The notes under the pieces were generated by a model that did not search any database, was not told where the DNA came from, and worked only from the letters and a program-made list of their open reading frames with translations. A program made the translations under genes and the position numbers. Shown in pieces: positions 33,127-51,679 of a DNA stretch of 64,000 nucleotides. Within the stretch, counting starts at the first letter, position 1. Each line of letters begins with the position of its first letter. Source of the DNA: an uncultured Desulfuromonadales bacterium (GTDB taxonomy: Bacteria > Desulfobacterota > Desulfuromonadia > Geobacterales > Pseudopelobacteraceae); NCBI GenBank assembly GCA_903868145.1, contig CAIPTY010000010.1:1-64000 (forward strand), written 5' to 3'.

Positions 33127-33150
33127 TTGGTAGACAGGTCTGTCTACCAA
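33127..33150. promoter_or_regulatory. TetR operator 1
   Basis: TTGGTAGACAG and CTGTCTACCAA are perfect 11-base inverted arms around GT. It sits in the 90-base gap between the divergent NTF2-like and TetR genes, nearer the former. Confidence 0.75.
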
Positions 33151-33167
33151 CAGTAATCTAGCAAAAG

Positions 33168-33183
33168 TAGGCAGACCTGTCTA
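33168..33183. promoter_or_regulatory. TetR operator 2
   Basis: TAGGCAG-AC-CTGTCTA repeats the core of operator 1 with one mismatch between arms. Its end overlaps the TATAAT box (33183-33188) of the TetR gene, so binding here would give autorepression. The box is only about six bases before the ATG, suggesting a leaderless or near-leaderless transcript. Confidence 0.7.
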
Positions 33184-33193
33184 TAATGAAATT

Positions 33194-33766: not shown

Positions 33767-33867
33767 GACTTAAATGGATAGTTACACCACCTTAAATCAC
33801 TTTTCTTCGAAACACCTCATACTCTTTTCCGTTGTCAGGTATGTTTTTTTGCTATAGCTTATAACGC

Positions 33868-34755: not shown

Positions 34756-34815
34756 GCGGATTCAACCATTTACCGTCAATTCAAAGTTCATGCATTCCAA
34801 GTTGCGGAGGCCTCC

Positions 34816-34974
34816 ATGAAGATTCTTATCATCAATGCCCATCCTGTGCCGCACCTCGGACTATCCCCGGAGGTGGTCCTCCAAAACCTGGCATTGGTCA
34901 CCGTTCCGCTAAAACTGCGCTTGTACTATCGGCTTGCGCAGGCGGAGCTTGTGCGGATTGCTGGAGGATTTTAG
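34816..34974 (+). pseudogene. NAD(P)H-quinone oxidoreductase start fused to a decayed Spy-like fragment
   Basis: GGAGG then ATG opens a 52-codon frame. Its first ten codons (MKILIINAHP) are the typical start of the flavodoxin-2 / NAD(P)H-quinone reductase family, which is normally about 200 residues. After that the DNA (34850-34912) is nearly identical to 36665-36727, which is the antisense of the signal-peptide region of the Spy-like gene. Read on the minus strand this copy encodes a broken SAVLAER*PMPGFGGPPPG. Both halves are therefore remnants. Confidence 0.75.
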
Positions 34975-34980
34975 GCAGTC

Positions 34981-35019
34981 AAAAGGGCGCTGATAGAGGT
35001 TAATCTAACAGCACCCTTT
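34981..35019 (-). terminator. Intrinsic terminator after the second DUF1566 gene
   Basis: On the minus strand GGGTGCTG pairs with CAGCGCCC (one mismatch) and is followed by TTTT. Loop and arms resemble the terminator at 30518-30556, including the ATTAACCTC loop, so the two are probably duplicated copies. Confidence 0.7.
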
Positions 35020-35044
35020 CGAACATCTCTTACTGATTGAAATT

Positions 35045-36274: not shown

Positions 36275-36333
36275 GATTGACTCCTTCTGTTGAAATGTTT
36301 TGCTTACCTGCTTCGGTTTTGAGATTCGCCATT

Positions 36334-36783
36334 CTATCGTGGTTCAGACATAAGATTAGCCAGCAACTCCCGCTGATCAGGCGTTAACAAAGCGTTGACC
36401 TTATTAAGGGTTCTGGTGTGTGACACAATCAATTTCACTTCAATCTGACTCTGAGCAACGGCAAGTGCCCCCACGGCAGCCTCGTCAAAGACGCTCGCAT
36501 CTGCTGCCTGTTTCAATTGTTCTCTGATCTCGTGCACCTTGTCCATAAGCGGCTTGAGCTTTTCCCGCTCGGCGTCAAGGAGGGCCTTGATCCGGATTCT
36601 TTGCGATTCTGTCAGTTTGAGAATTTTTGCCATACGCGCCTCAAAATTCTCTGCACATCTTTCAATCCCCGGAGGTGGTCCTCCAAAACCGGGCATCGGT
36701 CCCCGTTCCGCCAAAACTGCGCTTGTCCCACTGCCAATCATCGCTGCCAGGACTGCTGCTGTAGTCATCAGTTTCCGTCTCAT
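36334..36783 (-). CDS. Spy/CpxP-like periplasmic protein (LTxxQ motifs)
   Basis: A 149-residue protein from the ATG at 36783 (GAGGT upstream). Signal peptide ending near SAVLA-ER, a short Gly/Pro-rich segment, then two helical repeats with LTESQ and LTPDQ, the LTxxQ motif of Spy, CpxP and ZraP. These are periplasmic chaperones or metal-stress proteins induced by envelope stress; E. coli spy is regulated by BaeSR and CpxAR. First gene of an operon with DUF1566. A remnant of a second copy lies at 34850-34912. Confidence 0.85.
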   Translation of the reverse strand: MRRKLMTTAAVLAAMIGSGTSAVLAERGPMPGFGGPPPGIERCAENFEARMAKILKLTESQRIRIKALLDAEREKLKPLMDKVHEIREQLKQAADASVFDEAAVGALAVAQSQIEVKLIVSHTRTLNKVNALLTPDQRELLANLMSEPR

Positions 36784-36846
36784 TAGTATGTACCTCGCTT
36801 TCAAGTTGTTCACATCGCATTGATGTGTGCTGTTCTTGATTTCAGA

Positions 36847-36891
36847 GATAACAAGCAAATGTGTTGGAATTATGTAGTAAATGTATTTTTT
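36847..36891 (-). promoter_or_regulatory. 45-bp promoter/operator block, copy 2
   Basis: Upstream of the Spy-like gene. Differs from 30347-30391 at three of 45 positions. It carries the same TGTAGTAAATGTA core, T-run and TGTTAT -10-like box at the same spacing. Conservation beyond the coding regions implies a common regulator. Confidence 0.65.
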
Positions 36892-37015
36892 GGAGGGGAT
36901 AGGTAAAAAAGATGCGCAGGGTATGACTGATTAAAACCAGAAGCGGAATTTTATTAATTTATCGATTGTCATATTGCAATGCAGGCTACGAAAAATACGT
37001 TCACCCTGCCAAAAT

Positions 37016-37225
37016 TCATTCCGTTTTTCTACCTGGAATATACGGAATGAAGCCTAACCGGAATGCCTCTTCCAGCAGTTCCAAAGGGGCTCTGCGGATA
37101 TCAACGGCAAATCCGTTCACGGTAAGCATCCAAACCAGCAGATTATTATTCTGCCTGCTTGGCAGGCTCCAACGTGGATCAAGGTAACTGATGCCCCCCG
37201 AAACCGCATCAAAAACCGCCTGCAT
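37016..37225 (-). pseudogene. Possible decayed DUF6398-like gene
   Basis: A 69-codon frame from an ATG with no good ribosome site. The same frame is open for eleven codons further upstream (QNERQAKVPNA), and together with MQAVFDAVSGG this resembles the conserved KVPxAMQxVFDAI-type start I associate with DUF6398 proteins. The remaining residues (SYLDPRWSLPSRQNNN...) do not fit that family, so the gene looks rearranged or broken. The identification is from memory and weak. Confidence 0.35.
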
Positions 37226-37309
37226 AGCATTGGGTACTTTCGCTTGTCGTTCATTTTGTCACCTTTTACAAATTTTTCACAGCCTGCTTTGAATTACGAT
37301 TACTTGTGA

Positions 37310-37632
37310 TCATCGCAACAACCGCTGTTGCAAAAGAGTTTGCATATCACTTCTACCGTCCAGCACACAAAGTACAATCACTTCATTTTCGCGAATGGAG
37401 TAAATGATTCGGTATGGCTTGAAATGAATTTCCCGGAAATCCCGATTGCCAATTCTATCCAGTTCCGGTGGGTAATGGCCGCGTGCGGCATCTGGGTCAG
37501 AGAAAAAACTGCTTGAACAATGCCGTCAAGTAGTCTCTCTGCCGATTCCAGAGTGTCGTGGAACTCTACATAGTCATGAATATCGAATATATCAAATTCA
37601 GCCGTTTCGGAAAGCGTGATCGTGAACTTCAT
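37310..37632 (-). pseudogene. RelE/ParE-family toxin with a frameshift
   Basis: The frame starts MKFTITLSETAEFDIFDIHD, matching RelE/ParE toxins, and runs normally to MPHAAI near 37474. There one base appears to be missing. In the next frame the protein continues YPPELDRIGNRDFREIHFKP, then YRIIYSIRENEVIVLCVLDG and RSDMQTLLQQRLLR, ending at TGA 37310-37312. Total length corresponds to about 107 residues, normal for the family, with the conserved basic and Tyr residues in the second half. As read, translation gives an 84-residue product with a wrong C-terminus. The start overlaps the antitoxin stop (TAATG). Confidence 0.85.
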
Positions 37633-37913
37633 TAAAGGCGCCTTTGCCTGATTCGTTCTCTTATGTCAGCAAAAGCCTGTTCTGCGGGCTTTACACGCCC
37701 TTCCTCGACATCCTTGCGACTGATTGCCAAAATTTTCAGAAGTGCCAGGCTTTCCTGAATCTCTTCATATGAGGCGATATCCTGCAGAACCGCAGTAGCT
37801 TCGCCGTTCTGTGTGATGATGACGGGAGTGCGGCTTTCGGTTATGTTCAGGATAATATCGGCGGCATGCGCCTTAACGTAACTGATCGGTTTTACGGCTT
37901 CTTGTAGCAACAT
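37632..37913 (-). CDS. Phd/YefM-family antitoxin
   Basis: A 93-residue protein from the ATG at 37913 (AGGAGG six bases upstream). Beginning MLLQEAVKPISYVKAHAADI then ESRTPVIITQNGEATAVLQD, the Phd/YefM DNA-binding pattern; the C-terminal part is charged and helical and would bind the toxin. It stays intact although its partner toxin is frameshifted. Two perfect palindromes upstream are likely autoregulatory sites. Confidence 0.88.
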   Translation of the reverse strand: MLLQEAVKPISYVKAHAADIILNITESRTPVIITQNGEATAVLQDIASYEEIQESLALLKILAISRKDVEEGRVKPAEQAFADIRERIRQRRL

Positions 37914-37935
37914 GATAACCTCCTGTAGTCTTGAA

Positions 37936-37968
37936 ACTGAATTCAGTCTATATTGAGTTTTAAAACTC
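37936..37968. promoter_or_regulatory. Two palindromes upstream of the antitoxin
   Basis: ACTGAATTCAGT (37936-37947) and GAGTTTTAAAACTC (37955-37968) are both perfect palindromes, separated by a TATA-containing stretch that could be the -10 of the antitoxin promoter on the minus strand. They are probable binding sites of the antitoxin or toxin-antitoxin complex. Confidence 0.55.
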
Positions 37969-37987
37969 GGCAAGGAGAATTTATCCG

Positions 37988-38012
37988 AATTGTGTAGTAA
38001 ATGTATTTATTG
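37988..38012. promoter_or_regulatory. Third copy of the TGTAGTAAATGTA element
   Basis: The 25 bases GAATTGTGTAGTAAATGTAT plus TTATT match the core of the blocks at 30347 and 36847 with two differences from copy 1. It lies about 100 bases upstream of baeS and just ahead of a TTGACA (38018-38023), placing it where an activator of baeSR would bind. It has no matching -10 for the minus-strand antitoxin. Confidence 0.5.
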
Positions 38013-38108
38013 AGGATTGACAAGGAAAAAGCCGTTTTTGAGTATTTCCACGCGAGAATGTTTCTGGTAAAAATGGATTCAGGTATTTTGTAACACTGAG
38101 GCTTGACT

Positions 38109-39548
38109 ATGAAACTTACCATCACTCACAAGCTGTTTTTCGCGATATTTCTGGCGGCAAGCCTTGCAGTAATCAGCTCTACCCTGATTATGCAGTGGAA
38201 TCTCAACCGGGGATTTTTGCGACTGATCAATGGTATGGAAAAGAGCGGCGTATCGCGCCTGGCTTCCTTGCTCATCAATCAATACAACGTGGAATCAGGC
38301 TGGGCCTTGATCCTCCGTGACCAGATGAAGTGGCGTCAGATGGTTGATTCGTCTTTCCCGGAATTGAAACCGCCGCCTCCGACGGATAGGATTCATCCCG
38401 CTGACAGACCAGAAAACAGTGCTCAGCCACCACCTGATGTTCTCCCTCCACATCTTGCCCAGCAGTTCAGTCATCGCCTGTTTTTGCTGGATGCAACAAA
38501 AAACACGCTGATCGGACCGGATACTGTGCCAGCGGATGCCGATATAATTCCCCTGCACCATCAAGGCATAGTTATCGGTTACCTTGGAATTCGCCCTCAG
38601 AGAACCTTGGACAGTCTGCTGCATAAAGGATTTTTACATGAGCAGAGATATGCCTTTGTCATTATTGCCACAGTTGTCCTGTTACTATCTGCCGGCTTGG
38701 CGCTGCTGTTGGCAACCCGTTTGGTGAGACCGCTTAAAAACATTACCGAGGCGACTCATGTGCTGGCGCAGGGCAATTACTCAGTCCGCGTTCCGGTCGA
38801 TTCACATGATGAACTGGGACGATTGGCCGCCGATTTCAATGCACTGGCTCTGGCAATGGAGCAGAACGAGCGGGCCAGGCGGCGCTGGGTTGCTGACATC
38901 TCCCATGAACTGCGGACGCCGCTCACCTTTTTGCGGAGCCAGGTCGAGGCAATTCTGGATGGAGTGCGTCAACCGACCACTGAATCAGTCAAGGCAATCC
39001 ACAATGAAATCATGCGGTTTACGAGACTGGTGGATGATCTCTATCAGTTGTCCCTTTCCGATGTCGGCGCTCAGACCTATCGCAAGGATGAAGTGACAGT
39101 CTCCGAAGTTCTTCATCAGGCTGTCTCGATAATCAGCCCGGAATTTTCAACAAGGGACATTGCACTACAGTACGAAGCGACAGATACCATCACCGTCTTT
39201 GGTGATCCGGAACGTTTACGGCAACTGTTCGGCAACCTGCTCGACAATTCGCTGAAATATACCGATTCTGGTGGTGAGTTGAACATCAAGGTATGGAAAG
39301 ATGGCGGCAGGGTGATAATTGACTTTCAGGATTCAACACCCGGCGTAGCAGCAGCGGAACTGGAGAAGCTGTTCGAGCGCCTCTATCGCGTGGAATCTTC
39401 CCGTAGCAGAGCTACCGGAGGTGCCGGGCTTGGTCTGGCAATCTGCCGCAACATTGCCGAGGCGCACGAGGGGAGTATCATCGCGAAGACTTCACCACTG
39501 GGCGGGGTGTGGATACGGGTTGAACTGCCCTGTTACGGGAGTGCCTGA
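38109..39548 (+). CDS. baeS: Envelope-stress sensor histidine kinase
   Basis: A 479-residue classical sensor kinase: membrane helix about 10-30, periplasmic domain about 31-178 with a Pro-rich part (PELKPPPPTD), second helix about 182-203, HAMP, HisKA with ISHELRTP (His266), ATPase domain (NLLDNSLKYT, GAGLGLAI). The layout and its partner fit BaeS. The ATG at 38109 follows a TGAGG; the TTG at 38103 is rejected. The stop overlaps the baeR start (TGATG). Confidence 0.88.
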   Translation: MKLTITHKLFFAIFLAASLAVISSTLIMQWNLNRGFLRLINGMEKSGVSRLASLLINQYNVESGWALILRDQMKWRQMVDSSFPELKPPPPTDRIHPADRPENSAQPPPDVLPPHLAQQFSHRLFLLDATKNTLIGPDTVPADADIIPLHHQGIVIGYLGIRPQRTLDSLLHKGFLHEQRYAFVIIATVVLLLSAGLALLLATRLVRPLKNITEATHVLAQGNYSVRVPVDSHDELGRLAADFNALALAMEQNERARRRWVADISHELRTPLTFLRSQVEAILDGVRQPTTESVKAIHNEIMRFTRLVDDLYQLSLSDVGAQTYRKDEVTVSEVLHQAVSIISPEFSTRDIALQYEATDTITVFGDPERLRQLFGNLLDNSLKYTDSGGELNIKVWKDGGRVIIDFQDSTPGVAAAELEKLFERLYRVESSRSRATGGAGLGLAICRNIAEAHEGSIIAKTSPLGGVWIRVELPCYGSA

Positions 39549-40243
39549 TGAATGAAACCATATTGATAGTCGAGGATGAGGTTGCCACCGCAGAGATACT
39601 GGCGGATTATCTCCGTTTGGATAGCTATACAACTCATCTGCTGACGGACGGATTACCGGTTGTTTCCTGGGCTCGTGAGCATAAACCGGCCTTGATCCTG
39701 CTTGACCTGATGCTGCCGGGGAAAAGCGGACTGGACATCTGTAAAGAGATCCGCGCCTTCTCATCGGTGCCGATCATCATAACCACGGCGCGGGTCGAAG
39801 AGATTGACCGCCTTCTCGGGCTGGAACTGGGAGCCGATGATTATATCTGCAAGCCGTACAGCCCACGCGAAGTGGTCGCACGAGTCAAGACGGTTCTGCG
39901 AAGAGCAGCTGGAACTGCGGTGACTCCGTTGGAAGCAGGACTTCAACTGGATGAATCATGCTACCGCGCCACCCTGAACGGGCATGATCTGCAACTGACA
40001 GCAGCTGAATTCAGGCTGTTCAACTATCTTGCTGCCCATCCGGGGCGGGTCTATAACCGGCAGCAACTTTTGAACAATATTTACCCGGATGAACGGGCAC
40101 TGAATGACCGTGCCATTGACAATTACATCAATAAAGTCCGCAAAAAAATTACTGCCGTCAGCAATGAATGTGAGCTGATTCACTCTGTGTATGGGGTCGG
40201 GTATAAGTTTGATGTGCGGGAAGAACCTGGAGGACAAGCATGA
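39548..40243 (+). CDS. baeR: Envelope-stress response regulator, OmpR family
   Basis: A 231-residue regulator: receiver with Asp53 (ILLDLMLPG) and a C-terminal OmpR-type winged helix (LTAAEFRLFNYLAAHPGRVY, VYGVGYKF). The segment EEIDRLLGLELGADDYICKP followed by YSPREVVARVKTVLRR is almost that of E. coli BaeR as I remember it, much closer than to other OmpR-family members. It likely controls the Spy-like and DUF1566 genes and its own operon through the repeated 25-45 bp element. Confidence 0.9.
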   Translation: MNETILIVEDEVATAEILADYLRLDSYTTHLLTDGLPVVSWAREHKPALILLDLMLPGKSGLDICKEIRAFSSVPIIITTARVEEIDRLLGLELGADDYICKPYSPREVVARVKTVLRRAAGTAVTPLEAGLQLDESCYRATLNGHDLQLTAAEFRLFNYLAAHPGRVYNRQQLLNNIYPDERALNDRAIDNYINKVRKKITAVSNECELIHSVYGVGYKFDVREEPGGQA

Positions 40244-40251
40244 CCAGGCCG

Positions 40252-41265
40252 TCAGGCAAAGCCAAGAAACTTATTCAGCCGGTCTATCTCCCCCATCAGC
40301 TGCTCAAAACCGGGAAATGTAAGCGATTGGGGGCCATCTGACACGGCCTTCTCAGGGTTCGGATGCACCTCGACCAGAACCCCGTCAGCGCCAGAGACCA
40401 GAGCGGCCTTGGCCATGGGGGAGACCAGCGAGCGCTTGCCGGTGGCGTGGGAGGGATCAACCATGATCGGCAGATGGGACATTTCCTTGATCAGCGGCAC
40501 CACCGACAGATCCAGGGTGTTCCGGGTGGCGGTTTCGTAGGTTCGGATACCGCGTTCGCAGAGGATCACCTGTTCGTTGCCCTCGGCCAGGATGTATTCC
40601 GCAGCCGCCAGAAACTCCTCCACCGTGGCGCTCATACCACGCTTGAGCAGCACCGGCTTGCGGATCCTGCCCACCTCGCGCAGCAGATCAAAATTCTGCA
40701 TGTTGCGCGCTCCAATCTGCAGCAGGTCGGCATATTCGGCTACCAAGCCCACGTTATCGGGACTCATCACTTCCGTCACAATCGGCAGTCCGCTCTCTTT
40801 TCCGGCAATTGCCAACAGCCTCAGTCCCTCTTCGCGCAACCCCTGGAAGGTATGAGGCCCGGTGCGCGGCTTGAAGGCTCCGCCCCGCAGCATGTCAGCG
40901 CCACACCGCTTCACGAAGAGGGCTGTTTTAACAATCTGATCCTCACTCTCCACCGCACAGGGTCCGCCGACCACCACCGGACGGCAACCCTGCCCGACCT
41001 TGACTCCGGCCACATCGACAATCGTATCTTCGGGATGAAAATCACGCGATACCAGCTTGTAGGGCTTGGACACATGAATAACCCGCTGTACACCCGGCAG
41101 TTCGAGAATCTTGCTGTCATCCACATAGCCATGGTTGCCCAGCACCCCGATGGCAGTGCGCTCGCTACCGGGGATCGGCGCGGCGGTAAATCCCATTTCA
41201 GAAACTATGTGTGTTATTGAATCCACATCTGTCTGGGTAGCGTTGTGGTTCATGACGATCAGCAT
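40252..41265 (-). CDS. aroF: 3-deoxy-7-phosphoheptulonate (DAHP) synthase
   Basis: A 337-residue type I-beta DAHP synthase: N-terminal ferredoxin-like regulatory domain (about 1-75) and a TIM barrel (VVVGGPCAVESEDQ, GGAFKPRTGPHTFQGL, QIGARNMQNF, LLKRGMSAT, VDPSHATGKRSLV). It condenses PEP and erythrose 4-phosphate, the first step of aromatic amino acid synthesis. The N-terminal domain usually confers feedback control by Tyr or Phe. Convergent with baeR, with eight bases between stops. Confidence 0.95.
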   Translation of the reverse strand: MLIVMNHNATQTDVDSITHIVSEMGFTAAPIPGSERTAIGVLGNHGYVDDSKILELPGVQRVIHVSKPYKLVSRDFHPEDTIVDVAGVKVGQGCRPVVVGGPCAVESEDQIVKTALFVKRCGADMLRGGAFKPRTGPHTFQGLREEGLRLLAIAGKESGLPIVTEVMSPDNVGLVAEYADLLQIGARNMQNFDLLREVGRIRKPVLLKRGMSATVEEFLAAAEYILAEGNEQVILCERGIRTYETATRNTLDLSVVPLIKEMSHLPIMVDPSHATGKRSLVSPMAKAALVSGADGVLVEVHPNPEKAVSDGPQSLTFPGFEQLMGEIDRLNKFLGFA

Positions 41266-41738
41266 GATGTATCCTCACTTTCGGAGTGGCGGGAATAATG
41301 GCATGCCCCGCAAATAATGTACAACGATAATCAACTCAGGCCAAAACTACCACACTCCAGAGCTGTTTCAAAGTAGAGATGTGGTACGTTTTTGGGAGTA
41401 CCCGCCCGCTCTTTCACCGTTAACTCGCACAAGTTTGCTGAGTGCTGAAAATGGTATTCCCATGCTGTTGTCGAAAAAGTTTACAATACAATGACTCCCT
41501 TTAGAAACACCAGCGCTATATTCAATGAAATCAAGTTTTTTTATTAATGGTATATTTTGTGCGTAGTCACAGATATCAAAGTTTCACTCTTACTTGCTGG
41601 ATTCATTGCACAGTCGGCAGGAGAATATAATGTAAGGGTTTGCTTTTTTTGTTCATGGTGATGTATGATGAATTCCCTAGGCTTTTGATGAGCGCAGTTA
41701 TGAGGCATTTGCAGTGAGTTCGTTAAAAGGAGGGCTCC
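41266..41738. other. Intergenic region between aroF and the PEP-CTERM gene
   Basis: Divergent promoters must lie here. It is A/T-rich (41480-41700) with several T-runs. I see no ORF with a ribosome site and no recognisable riboswitch. AGGCTTTTGATGAGCG near 41681-41696 has GG and GC ten bases apart, a poor match to a sigma-54 site. Confidence 0.4.
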
Positions 41739-42482
41739 ATGAAATTCGCACTAAGAACATTGATCCAGGTAGCTTCGATTATTATCGTACTACTGGGCGT
41801 AGCTGTAATTTCCCATGCTGTTCAGATTAAGCCTGTAAGCTATGACATGCCTAATGGGTCCGGCATCGCTCGTGGCGGATTGTATAACTACTGGGATGTA
41901 AGCTCCACCGGTTCCGGGGAAAAAACTACGGATGGTGCCCAATTGACCGGCGTATCAGGGAAACTCACAGATGGCTTGATCGCAACGGAGAGTTGGGCAT
42001 GGACTGATGCTGACGGAACTTTTCATACGAGTGGCACCCTCGATCGGTATGTTGGGTGGACATGGGGGGACCCAACGATTGTATTTCATTTCACCAATCA
42101 GGTTAACATTGATAACATAACCTTTTATGTCGATAGCCCGTCAAATGACAAATTAAACAATCCTCAAGGTGGAGTAGCAGCACCCACAGGTTTTGAGATA
42201 GGTGGGGAACATTTCGATTCCGGTTACGACACATCCAAAAAAAACGTGCCGGGCACCGGTCCGGTAGAGATTAATATAGACAACCTTGGACTGACTATGA
42301 TCCAGGACCTGACCGTGCAAATTGACAGGGATACCTTCGGTGGAACCCGCTTTTGGCTCTTTTGCAGTGAAATTACTTTCGACGACGGTCAGCCTTCGCC
42401 CGTGCCGGAACCTTCTACAATCATTCTTTTTGGAGCAGGAATCGCGGGGTTCGCATTATTGAGGAATCGGCGCAGGAAATGA
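41739..42482 (+). CDS. PEP-CTERM sorting-domain surface protein
   Basis: A 247-residue secreted protein: signal peptide (hydrophobic VASIIIVLLGVAVISHA), a central beta-rich domain of about 180 residues with repeated aromatic and Gly residues and no Cys except one, and a C-terminal sorting signal VPEPSTIILFGAGIAGFALL followed by RNRRRK. PEP-CTERM tails are processed by exosortase and occur in biofilm/exopolysaccharide producers. AAAGGAGG precedes the ATG. It neighbours the NfrAB polysaccharide locus. Ligand or function unknown. Confidence 0.88.
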   Translation: MKFALRTLIQVASIIIVLLGVAVISHAVQIKPVSYDMPNGSGIARGGLYNYWDVSSTGSGEKTTDGAQLTGVSGKLTDGLIATESWAWTDADGTFHTSGTLDRYVGWTWGDPTIVFHFTNQVNIDNITFYVDSPSNDKLNNPQGGVAAPTGFEIGGEHFDSGYDTSKKNVPGTGPVEINIDNLGLTMIQDLTVQIDRDTFGGTRFWLFCSEITFDDGQPSPVPEPSTIILFGAGIAGFALLRNRRRK

Positions 42483-42507
42483 GCCAATCTATCAGATTCG
42501 GGAGCAT

Positions 42508-43563
42508 TCAGGGGGCGGTCGAGAGACCGCCCCCTGTGTATTTCTGGTAATCATGCAGGAGTTCCATTGCGGCACCACCACCTTCAGCTGACATATAGTC
42601 AGGGACACTGAAGGAGGTAATCCCGTCTGATGCATATTCGCCGGCAATCCGGAGTTGCTGTTTTACACGGCAAAAGGGTGCGGGCTTGGCTTCAAAGGGA
42701 GATTCTGAAACCATAGTAAAGAGTTCTACAACCACCTGAAGCTTTTTGCCATTGGCATCTGTGGTTTTTCTGAGGCCCTTCAGGTAGCGTGGAAGAATTT
42801 CGAGGGGCAGTTTCGCGGTACCGGCACCGTCTTGAAAAAGAAGGACATCCACCGATGTCCCCCCCAAAAGCTTATTCCAGAAGGCCTCATATGAATCAGG
42901 ATTCATGCGGGCATTGGAGAAACCGGACAGAAGTACCAAACCATCGGGAGACACTTTTTTCAAAAAACCGGAAAGCTGCTTGAGATGTTGAAAAAGCAGT
43001 TCCCTTAATTGTGGTGACCGCCATGTCAGATCATCGATTTCTTCCGGTATATACCACCCCTTGAACGCCTTGTATCTAGTCGCAACTACAGCTACTTCCT
43101 GAGCGACTCGCTCCGATTTCCAGCGCAAGCGTTTCAGATACTCTTGCTGACGATCAAATGATTGCCTGACCATCTCCCAGTGTTGTGATTCCGCAGCCAA
43201 TCCCAGATAGAGGTCGATGCCTCGTTTTTCCGCCAATTCGAGAATAATTTCCAGCGGCACCCGCGGCACCTGCTCGAATGTTCGGGTAGCATAATATGCC
43301 ATGTTGTCGTGCAGAGTCCATTGGACAATAACGTACCGCAGACCGATAGCCTGAAAGGAATCAAACAATTTCTCCCACCTGGCAGTATTCCAGTTGCTAT
43401 TTTTATCAAGAAGCTGGATAAATGTGCCGTCCAGTTGTGGTCTTTTTGCTGGACTGGCTGACACCTCAGCGTATGATCTTGAGATGGTTGCTCCACCAAT
43501 AAGAAGAACCAGAAAAAGTCGAAACAGCCGCAGATAAAATCTTTTTATAGGTTTTATTATCAA
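42508..43563 (-). CDS. DUF4434 glycosidase-like exported protein
   Basis: A 351-residue protein with an N-terminal signal or membrane anchor (about 8-32) and a TIM-barrel-like domain of the DUF4434 type (GTFIQLLDKNSNWNTARWEK, LRYVIVQWTLHD, YIPEEIDDLTW). DUF4434 resembles glycoside hydrolases; the EE of YIPEEID is a possible catalytic pair. It starts with TTG overlapping the NfrA stop, so it is co-translated. It probably trims or processes the polysaccharide exported by NfrA. This is inference. Confidence 0.8.
   Translation of the reverse strand: MIIKPIKRFYLRLFRLFLVLLIGGATISRSYAEVSASPAKRPQLDGTFIQLLDKNSNWNTARWEKLFDSFQAIGLRYVIVQWTLHDNMAYYATRTFEQVPRVPLEIILELAEKRGIDLYLGLAAESQHWEMVRQSFDRQQEYLKRLRWKSERVAQEVAVVATRYKAFKGWYIPEEIDDLTWRSPQLRELLFQHLKQLSGFLKKVSPDGLVLLSGFSNARMNPDSYEAFWNKLLGGTSVDVLLFQDGAGTAKLPLEILPRYLKGLRKTTDANGKKLQVVVELFTMVSESPFEAKPAPFCRVKQQLRIAGEYASDGITSFSVPDYMSAEGGGAAMELLHDYQKYTGGGLSTAP
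42511..42534. terminator. Perfect hairpin at convergent gene ends
   Basis: GGGGGCGGTC and GACCGCCCCC pair perfectly around GAGA. It ends the PEP-CTERM transcript and, on the other strand, forms the last eight codons (GGGLSTAP) of the DUF4434 gene. There is no long T-run on either side. Confidence 0.55.
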
Positions 43564-46500
43564 TAAAAGAACCCCAGACTGAAGAGTGCACTGTCATAAT
43601 CCCCACGGTAATTGCGAAATCCCTTGTCAAAAAACTTGCCATGCTTGAAGTTGATGCTGAAATCGATCACGCTCCGATAGTTCTCATAGCGAGTGTTGTT
43701 GAAGAAGTACTTCAGAGAAATACCCGCCCCCCCCTCCAAAAAATTTCCCCCTGCATTAAAAGGAGACTGCCAGTGAGCATCCATAACAAGATGGGGAGTC
43801 AGCATGTAATTGGAGAGGAAAGTAAAAGCGCGTCCCTTCCGAACTTCAACGGAAGCTGCAACTGTTGCACTACGCACGTATTCGTCAATTTCGCCGTAGA
43901 CAAGGTAATAATCCTGGTTTTGCACCAGTGGAAGCGGCTCGAAGCCTTTTCCCCGTGAGTAGAGGAGACGAAACAACCAATCATCCTGAGCATTTTTTCC
44001 GATCTTGATCAGTTGCTCCCCGCTTATCCAGAGGTTTTCGCTCTGCAGGAACTTATAGCGAAGGCCAATGCCCGCCTGGGTCGAGTCATCTTTGTAGTTC
44101 AGAGTGTCGGGCTTCAGGCTTCCGAATACTCTTCCAAAAAGTTCCAGAATGCGATCATTTCTAAAACCAATGACCGGTGGCCTGTACGATGCCTCGAAGC
44201 CAAGCTGGCCGCTCAATTCCCCACTGATCTGCTGCCCGCTTCCCAAGAGAGAGTTTGGTGATTTTCCGGTTCTATAGGCAGCATACAACGCCAAACTCGT
44301 TGTCTTAGTCAATTTGCTGATTTCGCTGCGAATCCGGTGGGCATCTTTTTCCAATCGGGCTGTTTCATCTGAAGCGCCCTGCGGCATCAGTGGAGAAGCA
44401 TCGAGTGTCTTTTTGAACCATTCAACAGCCTTCTCATTCTTGCCAATTTTAATATGCAGGTAGCCAAGCTCCTCAAGAACTTTCTGGGATTCTCGCGTGC
44501 GAGCTGCCACCAACTCGAAGATCCTGATGGCATCATCAAAACGACCGGCGGCAACGTAGGCATATCCCAGGGACAAGGCGTAGTCATCCTGTTGCGGCTC
44601 CTTTTCATATGCGTCCTGAAAAGAGTCAATCGCTTTCTGTTGTTGACCGGTTCGTTGATACAGTATCCCCAATGCATATGACCTGGAAGGTTTTGGCTGC
44701 AGCTTCCAGGTTTTCTCCATCAATGCAAGCGCATCTTCATTTTTTCCCAGCTTTTGCAAGAGGCCGGACTTCAGATCATAATATCCCGATATATCAGCAG
44801 ATAAGAGTTTGTCCGGGGCAATCGCATTCAAGGCCTTCCATGCTTCATCGGTCTTGTTGTCAAGGTAATACACATTGGCAAGATTCAGTAAGACCATATG
44901 GTCTGGTGCGAGTGCAAGCGAGCGGCTGAAAGCATCGGCCGCCTTGTCATATGCATACTCTTCCGCGTAGAGATGCCCCAATGTATCATATATCTGCTTC
45001 AACTGAGGCGGAGAAGGTTTAGATGGTTTCTCAAGTGCCGACAGCAGGTATTCCACCGCGGCTCCAGGCCTGCCGAGCTCCTTGTGGCAAAGCGCAATGC
45101 CCAGAATTGAAGCAGGATCCTTTTTCTGTCGATCCGCCAGAAGAAACTGCTGTAAAGCCAGCTCCCACTGTTGTGAACGATAGTGGGAAAGCCCCAGATA
45201 ATAATGGCGCGGCCAGTTTTCGCCACACAGCTTCAATGCGGTAGCGAGGTGGTCCGTCGCCTCCTGAATGTTTCCCTTATTGAAGGAATAAATTCCGAAA
45301 CTGTCCTCAGCGGAACATTTTTCAGCAGTTGTAGCGTCAGGGTGTTCGACAATCTTTTGTAAATAGCTTCTATAGCGCCCGTCTGTTTCCGGGTTTTCGG
45401 CAAATCGGTACAGGTTGGCCAAGATGAGAAAGATTCCCGGTGAACTATCACCAAGCGACACGACACTCTCATACGCCTGTATAGCTTCGTTCCAGTTTCC
45501 TGTTTTCTCCAGAATCAGCCCTTTTTCCCGCAGAGCAACACGCTTCTGATCATTTTTCAAGGACGTAACTGAGAGCGCCAGATCAAGATAGCGGAGCGCT
45601 TCCTCCGGTTTGCCAGCCTTGTTCAGCAAAACGGCCAGCCTGATGAGTGTCTCTGAATCAGCATTTGAAACAGGCTGGTATGCTTTTTCAAGTTCAGTGG
45701 CAGCAAGCGCGGTTTGACCAGCCTTCTCCAGAATGACACTTCTTTCTTTATAAGCCACCCGTTTAAGATCATCTGGCAAAGCAGGATCAGCAAGAGCTCG
45801 ATCAAGAAGCTGGAGCGCATCGTCCGATTTGCCGGCCCTGCCCAACAAAAGGGCACGACGAACCAATGAGCCACCTCCGGGCTTTGTCTGGCTACCGAGG
45901 CTTTTCTCCATGGCATCTGCTGCTTTCTCATAGCTGCCCGCTTTTTCATACACCAAGGCAAGATTTCTTTGTACAAGAGTCTTTTGCAGGTCTGAAAGCC
46001 TGAGAAAAAGGGTCTTCTCGAGAACCGTTCCGGCTTGGTCGAACTTTTCCATTCTGATCAATAGATTTGCATAGCGTAGCAACATATCTCCGTTTTTAGG
46101 GGTTTTCACAAGGAGCAACTTGTAGATCTCCGCACTTTCCCGAAGCATCCCTGCTGATTCATATGCCTGCGCCAGAATTGTCAAGGTTGCCACGGTAACT
46201 TTTTTTCCCTGCTGCTCCACCAACACTTTCAATTCCTGAATTGCCGCTGCATAATTGCGCCTCTTCAGGTGCAAATTAGCCAGGAACTCCCTATCATCCT
46301 GGTTCAATCCGCTAGGTTTGACCAATGTCATCCATTTTTCCGCTTCATCGTATCTGCCGCCCTGGTAGGCGATAAATGCCAGCCCGCGCAACGCCGACAG
46401 GTTATTGTTATCGTTTTCAATGACCATTTCGTAAGCCTGCTTTGCCTGCTCCATGTTGTGCAGCTTTTTGGCAACCTCGGCCAACGCGAGGGATGCCGCA

Positions 46501-47234
46501 ACTTTTTCAGCAGGCGACGTCGCTGATTTCTGGGATTCGCTAAAAGCTTTCATGGCTTCTTTCAGATGAGACGACTTTTCGAAAACAACGCCTGCTTTCA
46601 TGAAAAAGTCATGCTTTTTCTCGATTTCGGTGAGAGCCTGCAGCATTCTGCCTGCATTATCAAAATTTTTTCCGGAGAGTGCAAGATCGGCTGCCATCGA
46701 AAGGGCAAAAATTCGATCCGCTTTTTTGATATCTTTTACGGCTGCAGCCGATGAGAATACGGCAAAAGCAAGGTCCGCGTTTTCCAGCCTCTGAAAGGCC
46801 AACCCCTTGAAGAAATAGGCGGGAACAAATGTTGGCCAGCGACGAAGAATCAGATCTGCCTGGGCAATCACTTCGTTATGAAGAGCCAGCTTTTCCAAGA
46901 GCAGCAAATAGGAAACCCGAGTGCGGATATCATCAGGAGCAAGAACAAGATAAGCCTCAAACTCCTTGCGGGCCTCATGTAACTGACGTTCGCGCTGAAG
47001 CCGGTAGGCGCGTTCCAGATGGGGAAAGGAACGATATTTCTTGATCTCATCTTTAATAAAACCCCGCCCTTTAGATGGTTCGACCTTTTTCAGGTAATAC
47101 TCGAAATTCGGCTGATATGCTTGTAACTTCTCAGAAGCATTTGCGGGATTCACCCGGTTTCCAGGCAGATGAATGAGCAAAAACAGCAGCGACATCAACA
47201 TATAGGTACTGGTATTTTTCAGTATGTTACGCAT
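43560..47234 (-). CDS. nfrA: NfrA-like outer-membrane polysaccharide exporter with TPR repeats
   Basis: A 1224-residue protein from the ATG at 47234, two bases after the NfrB stop (the longer ORF to 47327 overlaps NfrB and is rejected). Signal peptide about 1-33; then about 900 residues of TPR-like 34-residue helix pairs (for example ALGILYQRTGQQQKAIDSFQ); the last 220 residues (from LALYAAYRTGKSPNSLLG to the final LGFFY) form an outer-membrane beta-barrel with the NfrA C-terminal pattern and a terminal aromatic. In E. coli NfrA is the phage N4 receptor and secretes the NGR polysaccharide made by NfrB. Here it lies between nfrB and DUF4434. Confidence 0.85.
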   Translation of the reverse strand: MRNILKNTSTYMLMSLLFLLIHLPGNRVNPANASEKLQAYQPNFEYYLKKVEPSKGRGFIKDEIKKYRSFPHLERAYRLQRERQLHEARKEFEAYLVLAPDDIRTRVSYLLLLEKLALHNEVIAQADLILRRWPTFVPAYFFKGLAFQRLENADLAFAVFSSAAAVKDIKKADRIFALSMAADLALSGKNFDNAGRMLQALTEIEKKHDFFMKAGVVFEKSSHLKEAMKAFSESQKSATSPAEKVAASLALAEVAKKLHNMEQAKQAYEMVIENDNNNLSALRGLAFIAYQGGRYDEAEKWMTLVKPSGLNQDDREFLANLHLKRRNYAAAIQELKVLVEQQGKKVTVATLTILAQAYESAGMLRESAEIYKLLLVKTPKNGDMLLRYANLLIRMEKFDQAGTVLEKTLFLRLSDLQKTLVQRNLALVYEKAGSYEKAADAMEKSLGSQTKPGGGSLVRRALLLGRAGKSDDALQLLDRALADPALPDDLKRVAYKERSVILEKAGQTALAATELEKAYQPVSNADSETLIRLAVLLNKAGKPEEALRYLDLALSVTSLKNDQKRVALREKGLILEKTGNWNEAIQAYESVVSLGDSSPGIFLILANLYRFAENPETDGRYRSYLQKIVEHPDATTAEKCSAEDSFGIYSFNKGNIQEATDHLATALKLCGENWPRHYYLGLSHYRSQQWELALQQFLLADRQKKDPASILGIALCHKELGRPGAAVEYLLSALEKPSKPSPPQLKQIYDTLGHLYAEEYAYDKAADAFSRSLALAPDHMVLLNLANVYYLDNKTDEAWKALNAIAPDKLLSADISGYYDLKSGLLQKLGKNEDALALMEKTWKLQPKPSRSYALGILYQRTGQQQKAIDSFQDAYEKEPQQDDYALSLGYAYVAAGRFDDAIRIFELVAARTRESQKVLEELGYLHIKIGKNEKAVEWFKKTLDASPLMPQGASDETARLEKDAHRIRSEISKLTKTTSLALYAAYRTGKSPNSLLGSGQQISGELSGQLGFEASYRPPVIGFRNDRILELFGRVFGSLKPDTLNYKDDSTQAGIGLRYKFLQSENLWISGEQLIKIGKNAQDDWLFRLLYSRGKGFEPLPLVQNQDYYLVYGEIDEYVRSATVAASVEVRKGRAFTFLSNYMLTPHLVMDAHWQSPFNAGGNFLEGGAGISLKYFFNNTRYENYRSVIDFSINFKHGKFFDKGFRNYRGDYDSALFSLGFFY

Positions 47235-47235
47235 G

Positions 47236-49524
47236 TTATTTCGCGTGTTCCTTTCCAGCCATCTCTTTGAAGATGGAAGCAATAATATCCGGAGCAACAA
47301 CCTGCATTTCCGTAAGAATGTCACCAAGACTCCTTAATCTCGCTTTCTGCAGGTTCATCGCGTGATCCAGTTGCTCAGGGGAAATATATCCTCTCCCGAC
47401 AAGGAAATCACCCAAACGCTTTCCGGGATTGGCAGCATGCTCTTCAAATGCCTTGTTAAGAACATCACAGGATATCAAGGATTCATCGAGCAGGATGTCT
47501 CCCAGTCGTGAATATGTTCGTCGTTGTCGTCTGAGCGCCTCGGACAACTGCTCTTGTGTTAACAGTTTTTTATCAATGAGTAGTTGTCCCAGCCTCGGTT
47601 TGGTGTTATCGCTTTCCTGTTCGGCAAGCCTTTCGTAGCCGCGCTGAATTGAAAATGAAAGACTGTTTTTTGTGGTGAGACACAGTTCGATCGGCAGGCC
47701 GACTGCAGCCTCGATCTTGCTTAACTCCTCCCGGCGTGGCACTGAGGAGGCGGCGATAATCAGTTTGTTGTTTTTCAGTTCTATGGGGAATACCGAATGA
47801 AGCACGGCAAGCTCGCGCGGCAACATGCGCAGCAGTTCAACAGGTGTTTCATAAGGATCTATCTCACGGGTTGAGATTCGCAATTGCATACCTAGGGTCT
47901 GTATCAGTTCGTCCTCGGTGACCAGACCCTTGTGCATCAGGATATCACCCAGCAAACGTCCGGTTTTCTGTTGTTCGCTGATGGCAGACTCCAGCTGTTC
48001 AAAGCTGATAACCCTTTTTTCCACCAGCATGTCGCCGATCCGTTTCCGGAATGACTTCAACTCATCCTCGCTGGGAACAACGTGAGTTGTATGATCCCAC
48101 TTGATCCAATTCCCGGTCATCAGATACCGCGAAAACATAAAGAGCGCCCGGTTGGTTGCAAAAAAATTGATGACGTTCGCCCAGACAAAATTGAGAATTG
48201 AAAGCAGTGCCCGCTTCAGGTTGTAGAACCTGAATACGCAGTACATCCTGACGGCCAGACGCATGATCAGAAAAACGGTTGTAATCTGAATTATTTTCCA
48301 GAGCAGGGTCCCTTTTTCTACAAGAGGTGGGTAGTGATAGGCATCGGGGAAGAACCGTACAGCCGTATAGTACGACAGTACGTACACGATTACCAGGTAT
48401 CCCAGCATGTTTACCTGGCTGGTCAGTAGAGCCTTGCGATCCTTGAAAAGCACATATTTTGTCAGTGCATCACCTTTCCAACCTAGGCTTTCCCACCCCT
48501 GCAAGGCAATGCCGGCGATCCAGCGGGATTTCTGCCGTACCGATGCCTTGAATTCAGCCGGGAATACATTTCTGATGGCTATCAGCTCATTTTTATCTAC
48601 CGGAATTTTTTTGCCGGTAAGTAGAGATTTTTCGGTGGTGGTTCGGGTTATCGGCAACTTTACAAAAATCGCCTTTTCCACACCTATGGCTTTCAGGCGC
48701 ATTCCCATCTCATAATCCTCGGTCAGAGAACCAAGTTTGAAAACAAGATGCTTTTCATTATCGCTCGCCAGCAACTCAAGTGCGTGCCTGCTGAATCCGC
48801 AGCCGACACCTGCACACGGGATGCCGCGACCGAAGACCTCGCGGATGACCATGTTCTTGTGGTGATTTTCGGCAAACTCATCCATGTAATGCGCTCTGGT
48901 CAGTTGGTACCAGTGCTGGGGTTCAAACGGAACGACCGGGAGTTGCACCATGTTTTTGCGGGGGATCAGGAAATTGAACAATTTGAGAGTAAGGGGATGG
49001 ACAATATCTTCGGCATCCTCCATCACAAAAACAGGAAACTCGAAATGATTTTCTTTTTCCATGTTACGGATACCCTCGTAGATCCAGTTCAGGCAGTCGG
49101 CCTTGCTGGTGGGACCCGGATCGCGGCAGACAATACAATGAATGTTGTCATGGATTTCCCGCAAGCGCGCCACCTCGCGCTGGGTGTCGGGATCGTTGGG
49201 GTATGTGCCTATAAATACTTGATAATTTGAATAGTTGAGTGTCGAGATGGAGTTACTTACCATATGGAAAATGATTGCTGACTCATTCCAGGCAGGAATC
49301 ATGACGGCGATCGGTTGTTCCGGAACACTGAGAAGTTGCTGCTCGGTTATTGGTTTATAGCGTTTTCTTACGAAGAGCGCCCGGTAGATAGTCCGGGTAA
49401 AATACATGACATCAACCACGAGTTCATCGATGCCGCTGACAAGGAATACGCAGGCGACCACAAAAAGCAGCCCCTTGAATGCCAGCATCACAAATGCGAA
49501 GTAATCGACATAGGTAAAACTCAT
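47236..49524 (-). CDS. nfrB: NfrB-like inner-membrane glycosyltransferase with MshEN repeats
   Basis: A 762-residue protein: N-terminal membrane helix (about 10-35), GT2 domain about 70-340 (AVMIPAWNES, EDAED 169-173, TEDYEMG about 268, QKSRW 331-335), further helices about 372-460, then a C-terminal region with four to five copies of the MshEN_N helical motif (for example RIGDMLVEKRVISFEQL, LLGDILMHKGLVTEDEL, RLGQLLIDKKLLTQEQL, RLGDFLVGRGYISPEQL). The first two and the following LRISTREIDPY..LLRMLP segment form a full MshEN c-di-GMP-binding domain. In E. coli NfrB synthesises NGR polysaccharide, activated by c-di-GMP. The extra MshEN repeats here are unusual. Confidence 0.9.
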   Translation of the reverse strand: MSFTYVDYFAFVMLAFKGLLFVVACVFLVSGIDELVVDVMYFTRTIYRALFVRKRYKPITEQQLLSVPEQPIAVMIPAWNESAIIFHMVSNSISTLNYSNYQVFIGTYPNDPDTQREVARLREIHDNIHCIVCRDPGPTSKADCLNWIYEGIRNMEKENHFEFPVFVMEDAEDIVHPLTLKLFNFLIPRKNMVQLPVVPFEPQHWYQLTRAHYMDEFAENHHKNMVIREVFGRGIPCAGVGCGFSRHALELLASDNEKHLVFKLGSLTEDYEMGMRLKAIGVEKAIFVKLPITRTTTEKSLLTGKKIPVDKNELIAIRNVFPAEFKASVRQKSRWIAGIALQGWESLGWKGDALTKYVLFKDRKALLTSQVNMLGYLVIVYVLSYYTAVRFFPDAYHYPPLVEKGTLLWKIIQITTVFLIMRLAVRMYCVFRFYNLKRALLSILNFVWANVINFFATNRALFMFSRYLMTGNWIKWDHTTHVVPSEDELKSFRKRIGDMLVEKRVISFEQLESAISEQQKTGRLLGDILMHKGLVTEDELIQTLGMQLRISTREIDPYETPVELLRMLPRELAVLHSVFPIELKNNKLIIAASSVPRREELSKIEAAVGLPIELCLTTKNSLSFSIQRGYERLAEQESDNTKPRLGQLLIDKKLLTQEQLSEALRRQRRTYSRLGDILLDESLISCDVLNKAFEEHAANPGKRLGDFLVGRGYISPEQLDHAMNLQKARLRSLGDILTEMQVVAPDIIASIFKEMAGKEHAK

Positions 49525-49561
49525 TGCCGTACAGACCCCTGTCCTGTTGCCATTATATTGA

Positions 49562-49714
49562 TCAAAACGCTCCTCCCAGGAACCTGTTTATGGCGCTTTG
49601 CACCTCGACGATGGAGAGGGGCATTGGATTGCCTGATGCGTGTGTAGCAGTTTCACATAAGATCGATACCAGAAGCCATCCCGCAACAAAAGCCACAAGG
49701 AAGGAATGTTTCAT
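49562..49714 (-). CDS. Secreted microprotein (50 aa) between wecB and nfrB
   Basis: An open frame of 50 codons whose ATG overlaps the wecB stop (ATGA, 49711-49714) and whose stop lies 37 bases before nfrB. The product has a signal peptide ([20 protein letters not shown], probable cleavage after THA), leaving a peptide of about 24 residues: [18 protein letters not shown] then FLGGAF. The EVQxxINxFLG pattern recalls short C-terminal motifs I have seen in Geobacter secreted proteins. The overlap, the signal peptide and the position in the locus argue that it is real. Function unknown. Confidence 0.65.
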
Positions 49715-50871
49715 TTATGGCCATCTTCTCCTCTCCTTATCAGTGTTTTCATAAGAACTTCCACGATCCGCCCGGCAGCCTGCCCATCCCCATATGGATT
49801 ATGAGCCTGACTCATGCTTGTGTAGGCGGCTTCGTCATCAAGTAAGCGGCAGGTTTCCCTGACAATTTTTTGAGTATCGGTGCCGACAAGCATGACTGTT
49901 CCCGCCAGAAGCGCTTCGGGCCGTTCAGTCGTCTCGCGCATTACAAGCACCGGCTTGCCAAGTGACGGTGCCTCTTCCTGCACGCCGCCCGAGTCGGTTA
50001 TGATCAGATAGCTCCGATCCATCAGCCAGACAAAGGGAAGATAGTCAACCGGATCGATCAGGTGAATATTCTCATGTAATCCCATCCCCAGCAGTCTCTG
50101 AACCGGTTCACGAACGTTCGGATTGAGATGGACCGGGTACAGGATTTCAACATCCTTACGGTTTGCGGCAATCTCTGCCAATGCCCGGCAGATCTGCTCA
50201 AACCCCTCGCCGAAATTTTCGCGGCGGTGACCGGTGACCAGAATCATCCGCTTGTTCATATCGAGAAAAGAAAAGGCGTGCGCCATGCGTGTCCCGATTT
50301 TGGCGTCATGTCTCACCTTGGCTACCACCGTGAGGAGCGAATCAATGACGGTGTTGCCGGTCAGATGTATCGCCTCAGGGGAAACACCTTCGGCAAGAAG
50401 GTTGGCGCGCGCCCAGGGAGTGGGTGCAAAGTGAATATCTGTCAAAACTCCGGCAAGCTTTCGATTGATCTCTTCCGGAAACGGAGCGAATTTGTTGCCT
50501 GTCCGCAATCCGGCTTCCACATGCCCGACCAGCAGGCGACAGTAGTAGGCGGCCAGCGATGCAGCCATGGTGGTGGTCGTATCACCATGAACAAGGACAA
50601 TATCAGGTTGCTCCTGTTCGAATAGCTCTTTGAGCCCCTGCAGGACACTACAGGTGACATCAAAAAGATCCTGCCCAGGTTTCATGATGTTGAGGTCGTA
50701 ATCCGGATATATCTCAAACAGGTCAAGCACCTGATCAAGCATCTGCCGGTGTTGAGCCGTGACGCAGACCCTGCTGATAATTGAACCCGGATATTTTTCC
50801 AGTTCCTTCACGACCGAAGCCATTTTAATGGCTTCAGGCCTTGTTCCGAAAACTGATATGATTTTTAACAT
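49711..50871 (-). CDS. wecB: UDP-N-acetylglucosamine 2-epimerase, non-hydrolysing
   Basis: A 386-residue enzyme of the WecB/NfrC family ([85 protein letters not shown]). It makes UDP-ManNAc from UDP-GlcNAc. In E. coli wecB is also nfrC, needed for phage N4 sensitivity, and supplies UDP-ManNAc to NfrB. Here it is in the same run as nfrB and nfrA, so the polymer probably contains ManNAc. Confidence 0.95.
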
Positions 50872-50944
50872 ATCGTGACCTTTGAGATTACACCTGACAA
50901 GCCGCCCTGGTGCCCCTCGGAAGATTCCAGTTGAAAGAATACTT

Positions 50945-51679
50945 CTACGATCTTCCGAATGTGTCTCCTCTGTCTGAAGTCGGCAGCTTCTGCTCGTGAC
51001 GTTCGCACAGCATCTGTAACCTGTCCATCCGATGGATCACAACCCGGTTGCCCTGCACTTCGATGATGCCATCGTCTTTCAGTTTTCTCAGCGTGCGGGA
51101 GATGGTTTCGCTGGCCGTCCCCAGACGTGAGGCAAGCTCCCCCTTTTTGATACCCAGATCCACATAGGTAATTCCGCCGTAGCTGGTCGATTTTTCATCA
51201 GCCCGTCTGATCAGGAATGATGCCAGCCGCGATGTCACATCGGCAAAGGAGAGTTCCTCGATCTGCCGGGCAAAACGCCGCAGCATCAAGGACAACGACA
51301 CTACAAGATTCAAAGCAAAACCAGGATTTCTGCCCATCAAACCAAGAAAACCTTCCCGTGGGAGATACAACGCCTCCCCCGATTCCAGGGCACGGGCTTC
51401 GGCAGGATATTTTCCATCGCCAAAAAACGCCGCTTCAGCAAAGGTTTCATGCGGCTGGACAAAGTGCAGCACCTTCTCGCGGCCATCGTGTGCGATCCTG
51501 CACAGCTTGATGGAACCGGAGACCAGCAGATAGAAACCGGTCGCCTCATCTCCCTCGCCAAACAGGGACTCGCCCTTTTTAAACGTGCGCCGGACGATAA
51601 TCGTGGCAAGTTCCGCCAGATCCGCGTCGTTCATTCCGGAGAACAGCAGCGATTTTTTGAGCAGTTCGATAAGTTCCAT
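50945..51679 (-). CDS. Crp/Fnr-family transcriptional regulator
   Basis: A 244-residue regulator: cNMP-binding-fold domain about 10-130 ([20 protein letters not shown], a jelly roll) and a helix-turn-helix with [20 protein letters not shown]. It has only two Cys, at neither end of an Fe-S cluster pattern, so it is not an oxygen-sensing Fnr; a DNR/NnrR-like or cAMP-independent role is possible. It starts two bases after the tkt stop. Confidence 0.9.

Follow-up and report, generated by a model that had tools for sequence, protein, structure and literature searches.

The stretch of DNA analysed here (the window; 64,000 nucleotides of contig CAIPTY010000010.1, from an uncultured Desulfuromonadales bacterium) carries four long genes, wecB, nfrB, nfrA and a ybcH homologue, which we consider with good confidence to form an Nfr-type synthase-dependent exopolysaccharide operon that works by the mechanism set out below. 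The genes and open reading frames (ORFs) of the locus are as follows.

49711..50871, minus strand: wecB (nfrC), 386 amino acids, a non-hydrolysing UDP-N-acetylglucosamine 2-epimerase (TIGR00236).
49562..49714, minus strand: 50-codon ORF with a signal-peptide-like start; an orphan.
47236..49524, minus strand: nfrB, 762 amino acids, a membrane glycosyltransferase of family 2 (GT2) with three C-terminal MshEN-type motifs (GT2, MshEN).
43560..47234, minus strand: nfrA, with a signal peptide, a tetratricopeptide repeat (TPR) array and a C-terminal outer-membrane β region (PF13283).
42508..43563, minus strand: ybcH homologue (DUF4434), with a signal-peptide-like start and a TIM-barrel domain (PF14488).

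The original prediction, which was made from the sequence and its reading frames, placed five ORFs at 42508–50871 in this order on the minus strand, and all five were confirmed. It also described their ends as overlapping or abutting. This holds for the nfrB/nfrA/ybcH junctions: the likeliest nfrA start is the ATG at 47234, one base past the nfrB stop, and nfrA overlaps ybcH by 4 nt. For wecB and nfrB, which are 186 nt apart, it holds only if the 50-codon ORF, whose start overlaps the wecB stop by 4 nt, is real. A TTG start for nfrA (to 47327, 1255 amino acids) was rejected as too long. All four long frames are intact, and all four large proteins match curated families in Pfam and NCBIfam, which bears out the combination of an in-operon UDP-N-acetylglucosamine 2-epimerase (TIGR00236) with an Nfr-type synthase and exporter (GT2/MshEN and NfrA_C). 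We conclude that the Nfr-type operon is real, complete and probably working.

The gene neighbourhoods of other nfrB genes were surveyed in 80 loci, the best of at least 587 confirmed relatives found by an NfrB-alignment scan of genome contigs; these are the loci most similar to the query, and some are close relatives of one another. In 47 of the 80, wecB lies directly upstream of nfrB on the same strand, and in a further eight it is elsewhere in the locus; it was not seen in 25 loci, seven of which are short. Downstream of nfrB, nfrA occurs in 64 of the 80 and ybcH in 63, with both in 58, and the order wecB-nfrB-nfrA-ybcH is complete in 40. This shared gene order and strand is beyond chance. 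The wecB link, which had been presented as unusual, is thus frequent in the survey, and it has also been published (PMC8669469). The occurrence of Nfr genes outside enterobacteria, likewise put forward as unusual, was already in print, the same source counting 406 species other than E. coli with NfrB homologues, delta- and epsilonproteobacteria among them.

NfrB is recognised by Pfam as a GT2 enzyme with an MshEN domain (PF05157, 4.2e-8), and is 34% identical to E. coli NfrB (6e-148). The GT2 active site (DAED, TED and QxxRW) is present: E. coli D169 corresponds to D170, TED 265-267 to 268-270, and Q326, R329 and W330 to Q331, R334 and W335. Two E. coli studies, published in mBio in 2021, describe NfrB as a glycosyltransferase that binds cyclic di-GMP (c-di-GMP), NfrA as the pore and UDP-N-acetylmannosamine (UDP-ManNAc) as the precursor, with infection by phage N4 as the readout (PMC8669469, PMC8669472). 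Two of the three E. coli MshEN residues mutated for binding are identical in the window NfrB (G491, here G497, and L537, here L544).

The predicted c-di-GMP-binding motifs are present in NfrB, by PF05157 and by the NCBIfam model NF053729, which matches in three stretches (4e-47). NCBIfam gives three MshEN stretches also in all five of the non-enteric relatives scanned, and one in E. coli. A motif model built in this analysis places the MshEN-type motifs of the window NfrB at 495-547, 644-696 and 703-754; applied to 87 NfrB rows, some of them incomplete, it counted three motifs in 15, two in 62, one in five and none in five. Three strong and non-overlapping motifs are found in the window NfrB and ten others (L015-L018 and L022-L027), while in the remaining four three-motif rows the second and third motifs overlap. 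By the same model E. coli NfrB has two motifs, the second weak. The pilus ATPase PilF (6f8l), presumably a Thermus protein, also matches, with three MshEN stretches.

Some nfrB genes in the survey are irregular. In Nitrosomonas (L029 and L030) the nfrB ORFs are short, at 538-539 amino acids with a single MshEN-type motif, and end 400-500 bases before the nfrA ORF; tblastn matches the query up to residue 743-755, so that the remainder may be encoded in a different frame. In an E. coli strain (L073, 9989-12226) and in Hafnia alvei GB001 (L056, 9977-12211) nfrB is split into two ORFs, and a broken nfrB has been described in some E. coli (PMC8669472).

NfrA matches NfrA_C (PF13283, 6e-23) and many TPR families in Pfam. 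Its last 404 residues were modelled from 40 aligned sequences with a predicted local distance difference test (pLDDT) score of 91.7, as a TPR array followed by a β-rich C-terminus. The best Foldseek match of this model was the cellulose porin BcsC (9b8a, 1.3e-10); the polysaccharide porin 4y25, which we take to be PgaA, matched at 2e-7, and the other listed matches were mostly TPR proteins. With VIA-align the matches were mostly to the TPR part and say little about the barrel. The similarity to an NfrA C-terminal barrel, for which structure prediction had been proposed as the check, was found in the form of a modelled β region whose best match is BcsC.

The DUF4434 protein matches PF14488 (1.5e-53) and is 30% identical to E. 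coli YbcH over 260 residues (4e-19). The suggestion that it substitutes for an extra E. coli gene is not supported: that gene, ybcH, encodes a DUF4434 homologue too and occupies the same position, and so nothing has been replaced in the window. The model, built from 44 aligned sequences (pLDDT 92.1), is a (β/α)8 barrel. Among chains pre-ranked by Foldseek, 993 of 998 of which had a VIA Z of 8 or more, the closest solved fold was BT_0435 of Bacteroides (PDB 4h41; Z 34.5 over 288 residues at 2.5 Å; 8.5e-11 by sequence), labelled by its depositors as a putative α-L-fucosidase. Next, at Z of about 18-20, come Cwp19 of Clostridium difficile, GH5 mannanases, a GH164 β-mannosidase, GH42, β-galactosidases and β-glucuronidases, with the C-terminal domain of E. 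coli PgaB at Z 18.7. Sharing a TIM barrel does not by itself establish a function, and we do not read the mannan-type matches as pointing to ManNAc.

Glycoside hydrolases (GH) of clan GH-A have their catalytic Glu pair at the C-terminal ends of β-4 and β-7, and usually, although not universally, an Asn before the acid/base Glu. In an alignment of 44 YbcH sequences (that of the window and 43 of 65 candidates), E175, at the end of β-4 (strand 167-176), is invariant (44/44), and E280, at the end of β-7 (strand 274-280), is kept in 43/44; W63, Q81, W82, D178 and Q244 are also invariant. On the basis of the GH-type TIM barrel and this conserved Glu pair we propose that YbcH works in the periplasm as a glycosidase of the exported chain, a role that the modelled fold and the Glu pair suggest. 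A somewhat doubtful but serious alternative is that YbcH has no catalytic activity and serves as a scaffold or lectin retaining the growing chain, the rest of the machine being unchanged. E. coli YbcH has been described as a putative periplasmic scaffold, and ybcH is dispensable in N4 infection and has a partial effect on motility (PMC8669469); moreover, the residue before E175 is not the usual Asn but E174 in the window and Ala in E. coli YbcH. Against a scaffold stands the retention of Glu at the two classical positions together with the five other invariant residues, since a scaffold would not obviously need a conserved Glu pair. Neither DUF4434 nor ybcH together with "glycoside hydrolase" was found among open-licence PMC papers.

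Taking YbcH as a candidate hydrolase, we propose the following mechanism. WecB would produce UDP-ManNAc, and NfrB, on binding c-di-GMP at its C-terminal MshEN motifs, would polymerise a probably ManNAc-containing chain and extrude it across the inner membrane. The TPR array of NfrA would guide the chain through the periplasm and its barrel would export it, while YbcH, periplasmic and either anchored or soluble, would act on the chain as a glycoside hydrolase, to trim or release it or to control its quality. PgaB, through its GH domain, has a comparable role on poly-N-acetylglucosamine (PNAG). The activation by c-di-GMP, the identity of the polymer and its export we infer from homology and from the work on E. 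coli.

Several observations weigh against this interpretation. The NCBI equivalog cut-offs are not reached by NfrB (NF008411, 626 of 1170 bits), NfrA (NF007302, 56 of 1223) or YbcH (NF007404, 122 of 344), and conservation of the exact product is therefore not established; the five non-enteric NfrB relatives scanned likewise fall below 1170 bits. The C-terminal part of NfrA is 19% identical to that of E. coli NfrA, or 20% over an alignment of 420 residues (4e-10), and we counted 12 strands in the model, against the 16 stated for the E. coli NfrA barrel (PMC8669472). E. coli NfrB L490, among the residues mutated as crucial to c-di-GMP binding (PMC8669469), is I496 in the window. Promoter-like sites at the locus are no more frequent than in shuffled sequences. 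To these must be added the two points on YbcH given above, the missing Asn and the dispensability of ybcH in E. coli.

WecB scores 517.8 bits with TIGR00236 (cut-off 210; 1.5e-155), and its closest PDB chain by sequence is 1vgv. We think it unlikely that the polymer is not based on ManNAc, with NfrB using another UDP-sugar and WecB serving a different pathway. The E. coli product is postulated rather than chemically characterised in PMC8669472, and WecB is a generic enzyme: 36 of the 57 genomes searched, our own included, have a wecB family match, and only our own has NfrB. On the other hand, the direct upstream position of wecB recurs across many phyla, and the linked wecB genes do not form one clade, the link having arisen or been re-made more than once. 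In addition, the operon copy is the only wecB match in its genome, where a search for the WecG transferase family, which might also consume ManNAc, gave no match.

According to PMC8669469, where an organism has no other WecB, one is found in direct association with nfrB. NfrB is found at E ≤ 1e-60 in seven of 395 genomes of the phylum, including our own. In six further nfrB genomes checked for the rule, wecB genes over the family cut-off are linked only in G367 and G445, both linked and unlinked in G444, and unlinked only in G130, G443 and G446. The rule is thus tested by three genomes (our own, G367 and G445) and holds in all three, the other four having an unlinked copy and so not being informative.

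A single clade of the 31 upstream-linked wecB rows was rejected (approximately unbiased test, p 3e-48) in a tree of 62 of 87 rows, the 25 rows removed comprising long branches, near-duplicates and L144, the gene of L023 itself; the test was framed after the first tree was known. The link was therefore formed, or formed anew, on more than one occasion. In a quick tree, the wecB genes of the window and of Geobacter sp. UBA9964 (L023) are nested among unlinked Geobacterales wecB. When these two were constrained to a clade with 11 unlinked wecB, the constraint was not rejected (p 0.85), and its score was better than that of the free tree. Constraining them to the linked wecB of L021, from the same phylum, likewise led to no rejection (p 0.76). 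For phylum-linked wecB, a clade of five rows was rejected only marginally (p 0.044). These comparisons are no more than suggestive of a local recruitment of the window wecB from Geobacterales stock.

At 186 nt, the spacer that separates wecB from nfrB exceeds those of all 46 linked loci measured (-254 to +117 nt). Outside this set lies L036, labelled "near" in the wecB trees, in which wecB and nfrB occupy one uninterrupted frame of 926 codons (7309-10089), possibly a natural epimerase-synthase fusion. The 50-codon ORF in the spacer has no Pfam match even at E 10; its best tblastn match outside its own genome was at E 0.14 among the nfr loci compared, and at E 0.0024 across 38 other related genomes, 15 of which gave a match at E ≤ 1. 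We rejected the microprotein as a conserved fifth component on the grounds that it has no family and no convincing homologue, and that wecB and nfrB overlap in L023, the nearest linked relative. A dockerin-like tail was a by-eye impression and was also dropped. The ORF is an orphan, probably not a conserved component and possibly untranslated.

The operon lies in a block of DNA inserted between crp and aroF, with the following additional features.

41267..50993: inserted block of 9.7 kb, which carries the operon; the site is empty in relatives.
41739..42482, plus strand: PEP-CTERM surface-protein gene, convergent to the operon and in the same inserted block.
50945-51679, minus strand: crp (CRP/FNR-type regulator), flank of the inserted block.
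40252-41265, minus strand: aroF, for 3-deoxy-D-arabino-heptulosonate 7-phosphate synthase, other flank of the inserted block.

In three of three other same-genus genomes the site is empty, and aroF comes straight after crp. The match to the window breaks off at 50994 and picks up again at 41266 in G002 (18 bases between), 41184 in G001 (100 bases) and 41178 in G003 (192 bases), and at the insertion border the window crp frame has 15 foreign C-terminal codons beyond the stop of the relatives. NfrB was found at E ≤ 1e-40 in its own genome only, of the 57 searched. The 9.7-kb block was probably acquired horizontally; as to direction, which we infer, gain in this species would be more economical than many losses. 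A quick NfrB tree places the window, L023 and Geomesophilobacter sediminis (L022) in one starred clade. A mobile element as the vehicle was rejected: no integrase or transposase family, tRNA or Rfam match was found, the mobility-gene scan covering ORFs in 28.4-36.9 kb and 38.1-42.5 kb and neighbours to 63.9 kb.

An acquired block might also be a decayed or silent one, no longer a working operon. Its genes have a lower GC content (0.48-0.52) than crp, tkt, thiL and aroF (0.54-0.59), the wecB-nfrB spacer is the longest of those compared, NfrB is confined to one of the 57 genomes, and no promoter stands above chance. We nevertheless regard decay or silence as quite improbable. The four long frames are intact with their catalytic residues kept, low GC is not unique to the block (the window gene at 9126-11213 is at 0.483), and wecB follows crp on the same strand at a distance of 73 nt, so that read-through from crp is possible.

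The PEP-CTERM gene has a homologue (51%) convergent to ybcH in L022; a pattern search for PEP-CTERM genes beside other nfr loci was too strict, as it missed this known gene. The genome of the window has six PEP-CTERM matches and one exosortase match. Given this set, and the PEP-CTERM gene on the nfr insert, an exosortase-anchored surface protein may be connected with the Nfr polymer. Another block, about 12 kb long (window 27948-40288), is absent from G002 and G003, in which the match to window 27.9 kb lies 48 and 1,045 bases from aroF, respectively; aroF is therefore flanked by insertions on both sides. This block contains Lcl_C, pirin, LysR, TetR and BaeS-like genes, with no recognised mobility gene among the ORFs scanned. 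Two adjacent FlgO-family genes lie at window 62631-63949.

The original prediction also raised the possibility that the locus is the entry receptor for N4-like phages of its host. In E. coli, N4 infection requires nfrB, nfrA and wecB but not ybcH, and UDP-ManNAc is the sole contribution of the enterobacterial common antigen (ECA) pathway (PMC8669469, PMC8669472). Homology with this set favours a receptor role (PMC8669472), which we nevertheless consider highly improbable: the analysis gave no evidence for it, although no search for phages of this host was made, and the C-terminal region of NfrA is 19% identical to that of E. coli NfrA. Four pattern matches to NfrB on viral contigs were found, none of them confirmed.

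The Nfr gene set in many bacteria and its link with wecB were already known; what is added here is the insertion, the sole wecB, the fold and Glu pair of YbcH, and the three motifs. Taken more broadly, and tentatively, it is possible, if somewhat short of probable, that Nfr systems are synthase-hydrolase-porin machines in which YbcH would be an active clan-A-like glycosidase cutting a ManNAc-based chain in the periplasm, that the Geobacter/desulfo-type synthase would be gated by three c-di-GMP modules as a steeper switch than in E. coli, and that the supply gene would have been attached several times independently. In a Geobacter-like bacterium with a complete Nfr operon, export of a polymer could influence how cells attach to minerals and electrodes. 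For ybcH, which had no assigned function in the phage-N4 receptor pathway, the results also supply a candidate enzyme role that can be tested directly at two specified residues. The E. coli papers leave both the identity of the N4 glycan receptor (NGR) product and the function of YbcH unsettled, so that the prediction for YbcH is testable at once in K-12.

Compared with E. coli K-12, the order and direction nfrB-nfrA-ybcH are common to both. In K-12, wecB lies in the ECA operon at 3.97 Mb, far from nfr at 0.59 Mb, whereas in the window wecB heads the operon; E. coli NfrB has one MshEN stretch (NCBIfam) or two, the second weak, against three strong ones here. The wecB-linked nfr operons of Pseudomonas, betaproteobacteria and others resemble the window in that wecB adjoins nfrB, the published example being Pseudomonas soli (PMC8669469). 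In most pseudomonads a GGDEF gene is associated with nfr (PMC8669469), in contrast to the window, where there is none among the neighbouring genes scanned.

The setting in a metal/organic-acid type of host, as predicted, is supported by a Geobacteraceae-like affiliation, the closest named loci among the matches listed being those of Geomesophilobacter sediminis and Geobacter sp. UBA9964; NfrB together with Geobacter was not found among open-licence PMC papers. In UBA9964, NfrB is 78% identical with three MshEN-type motifs, and wecB lies upstream, overlapping nfrB by 4 nt and hence with no spacer, unlike the window. In G. sediminis, NfrB is 74% identical, again with three MshEN-type motifs, and the convergent PEP-CTERM gene is present as in the window; there is no wecB within 10 kb before nfrB, and two over the family cut-off occur elsewhere in the genome. 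A 1059-codon ORF with Ig-like domains (6105-9284) lies there upstream of nfrB, where no wecB was seen.

The Nfr type also resembles the PgaABCD (PNAG) and Bcs (cellulose) systems, which likewise combine a GT2 synthase, a TPR-barrel porin, a periplasmic TIM-barrel glycosidase and control by c-di-GMP. The c-di-GMP sensors of the Bcs and Pga systems are PilZ or PgaD. The Nfr type differs from both in having an MshEN sensor inside the synthase, a UDP-ManNAc supply gene in the operon, and no deacetylase gene in the operon.

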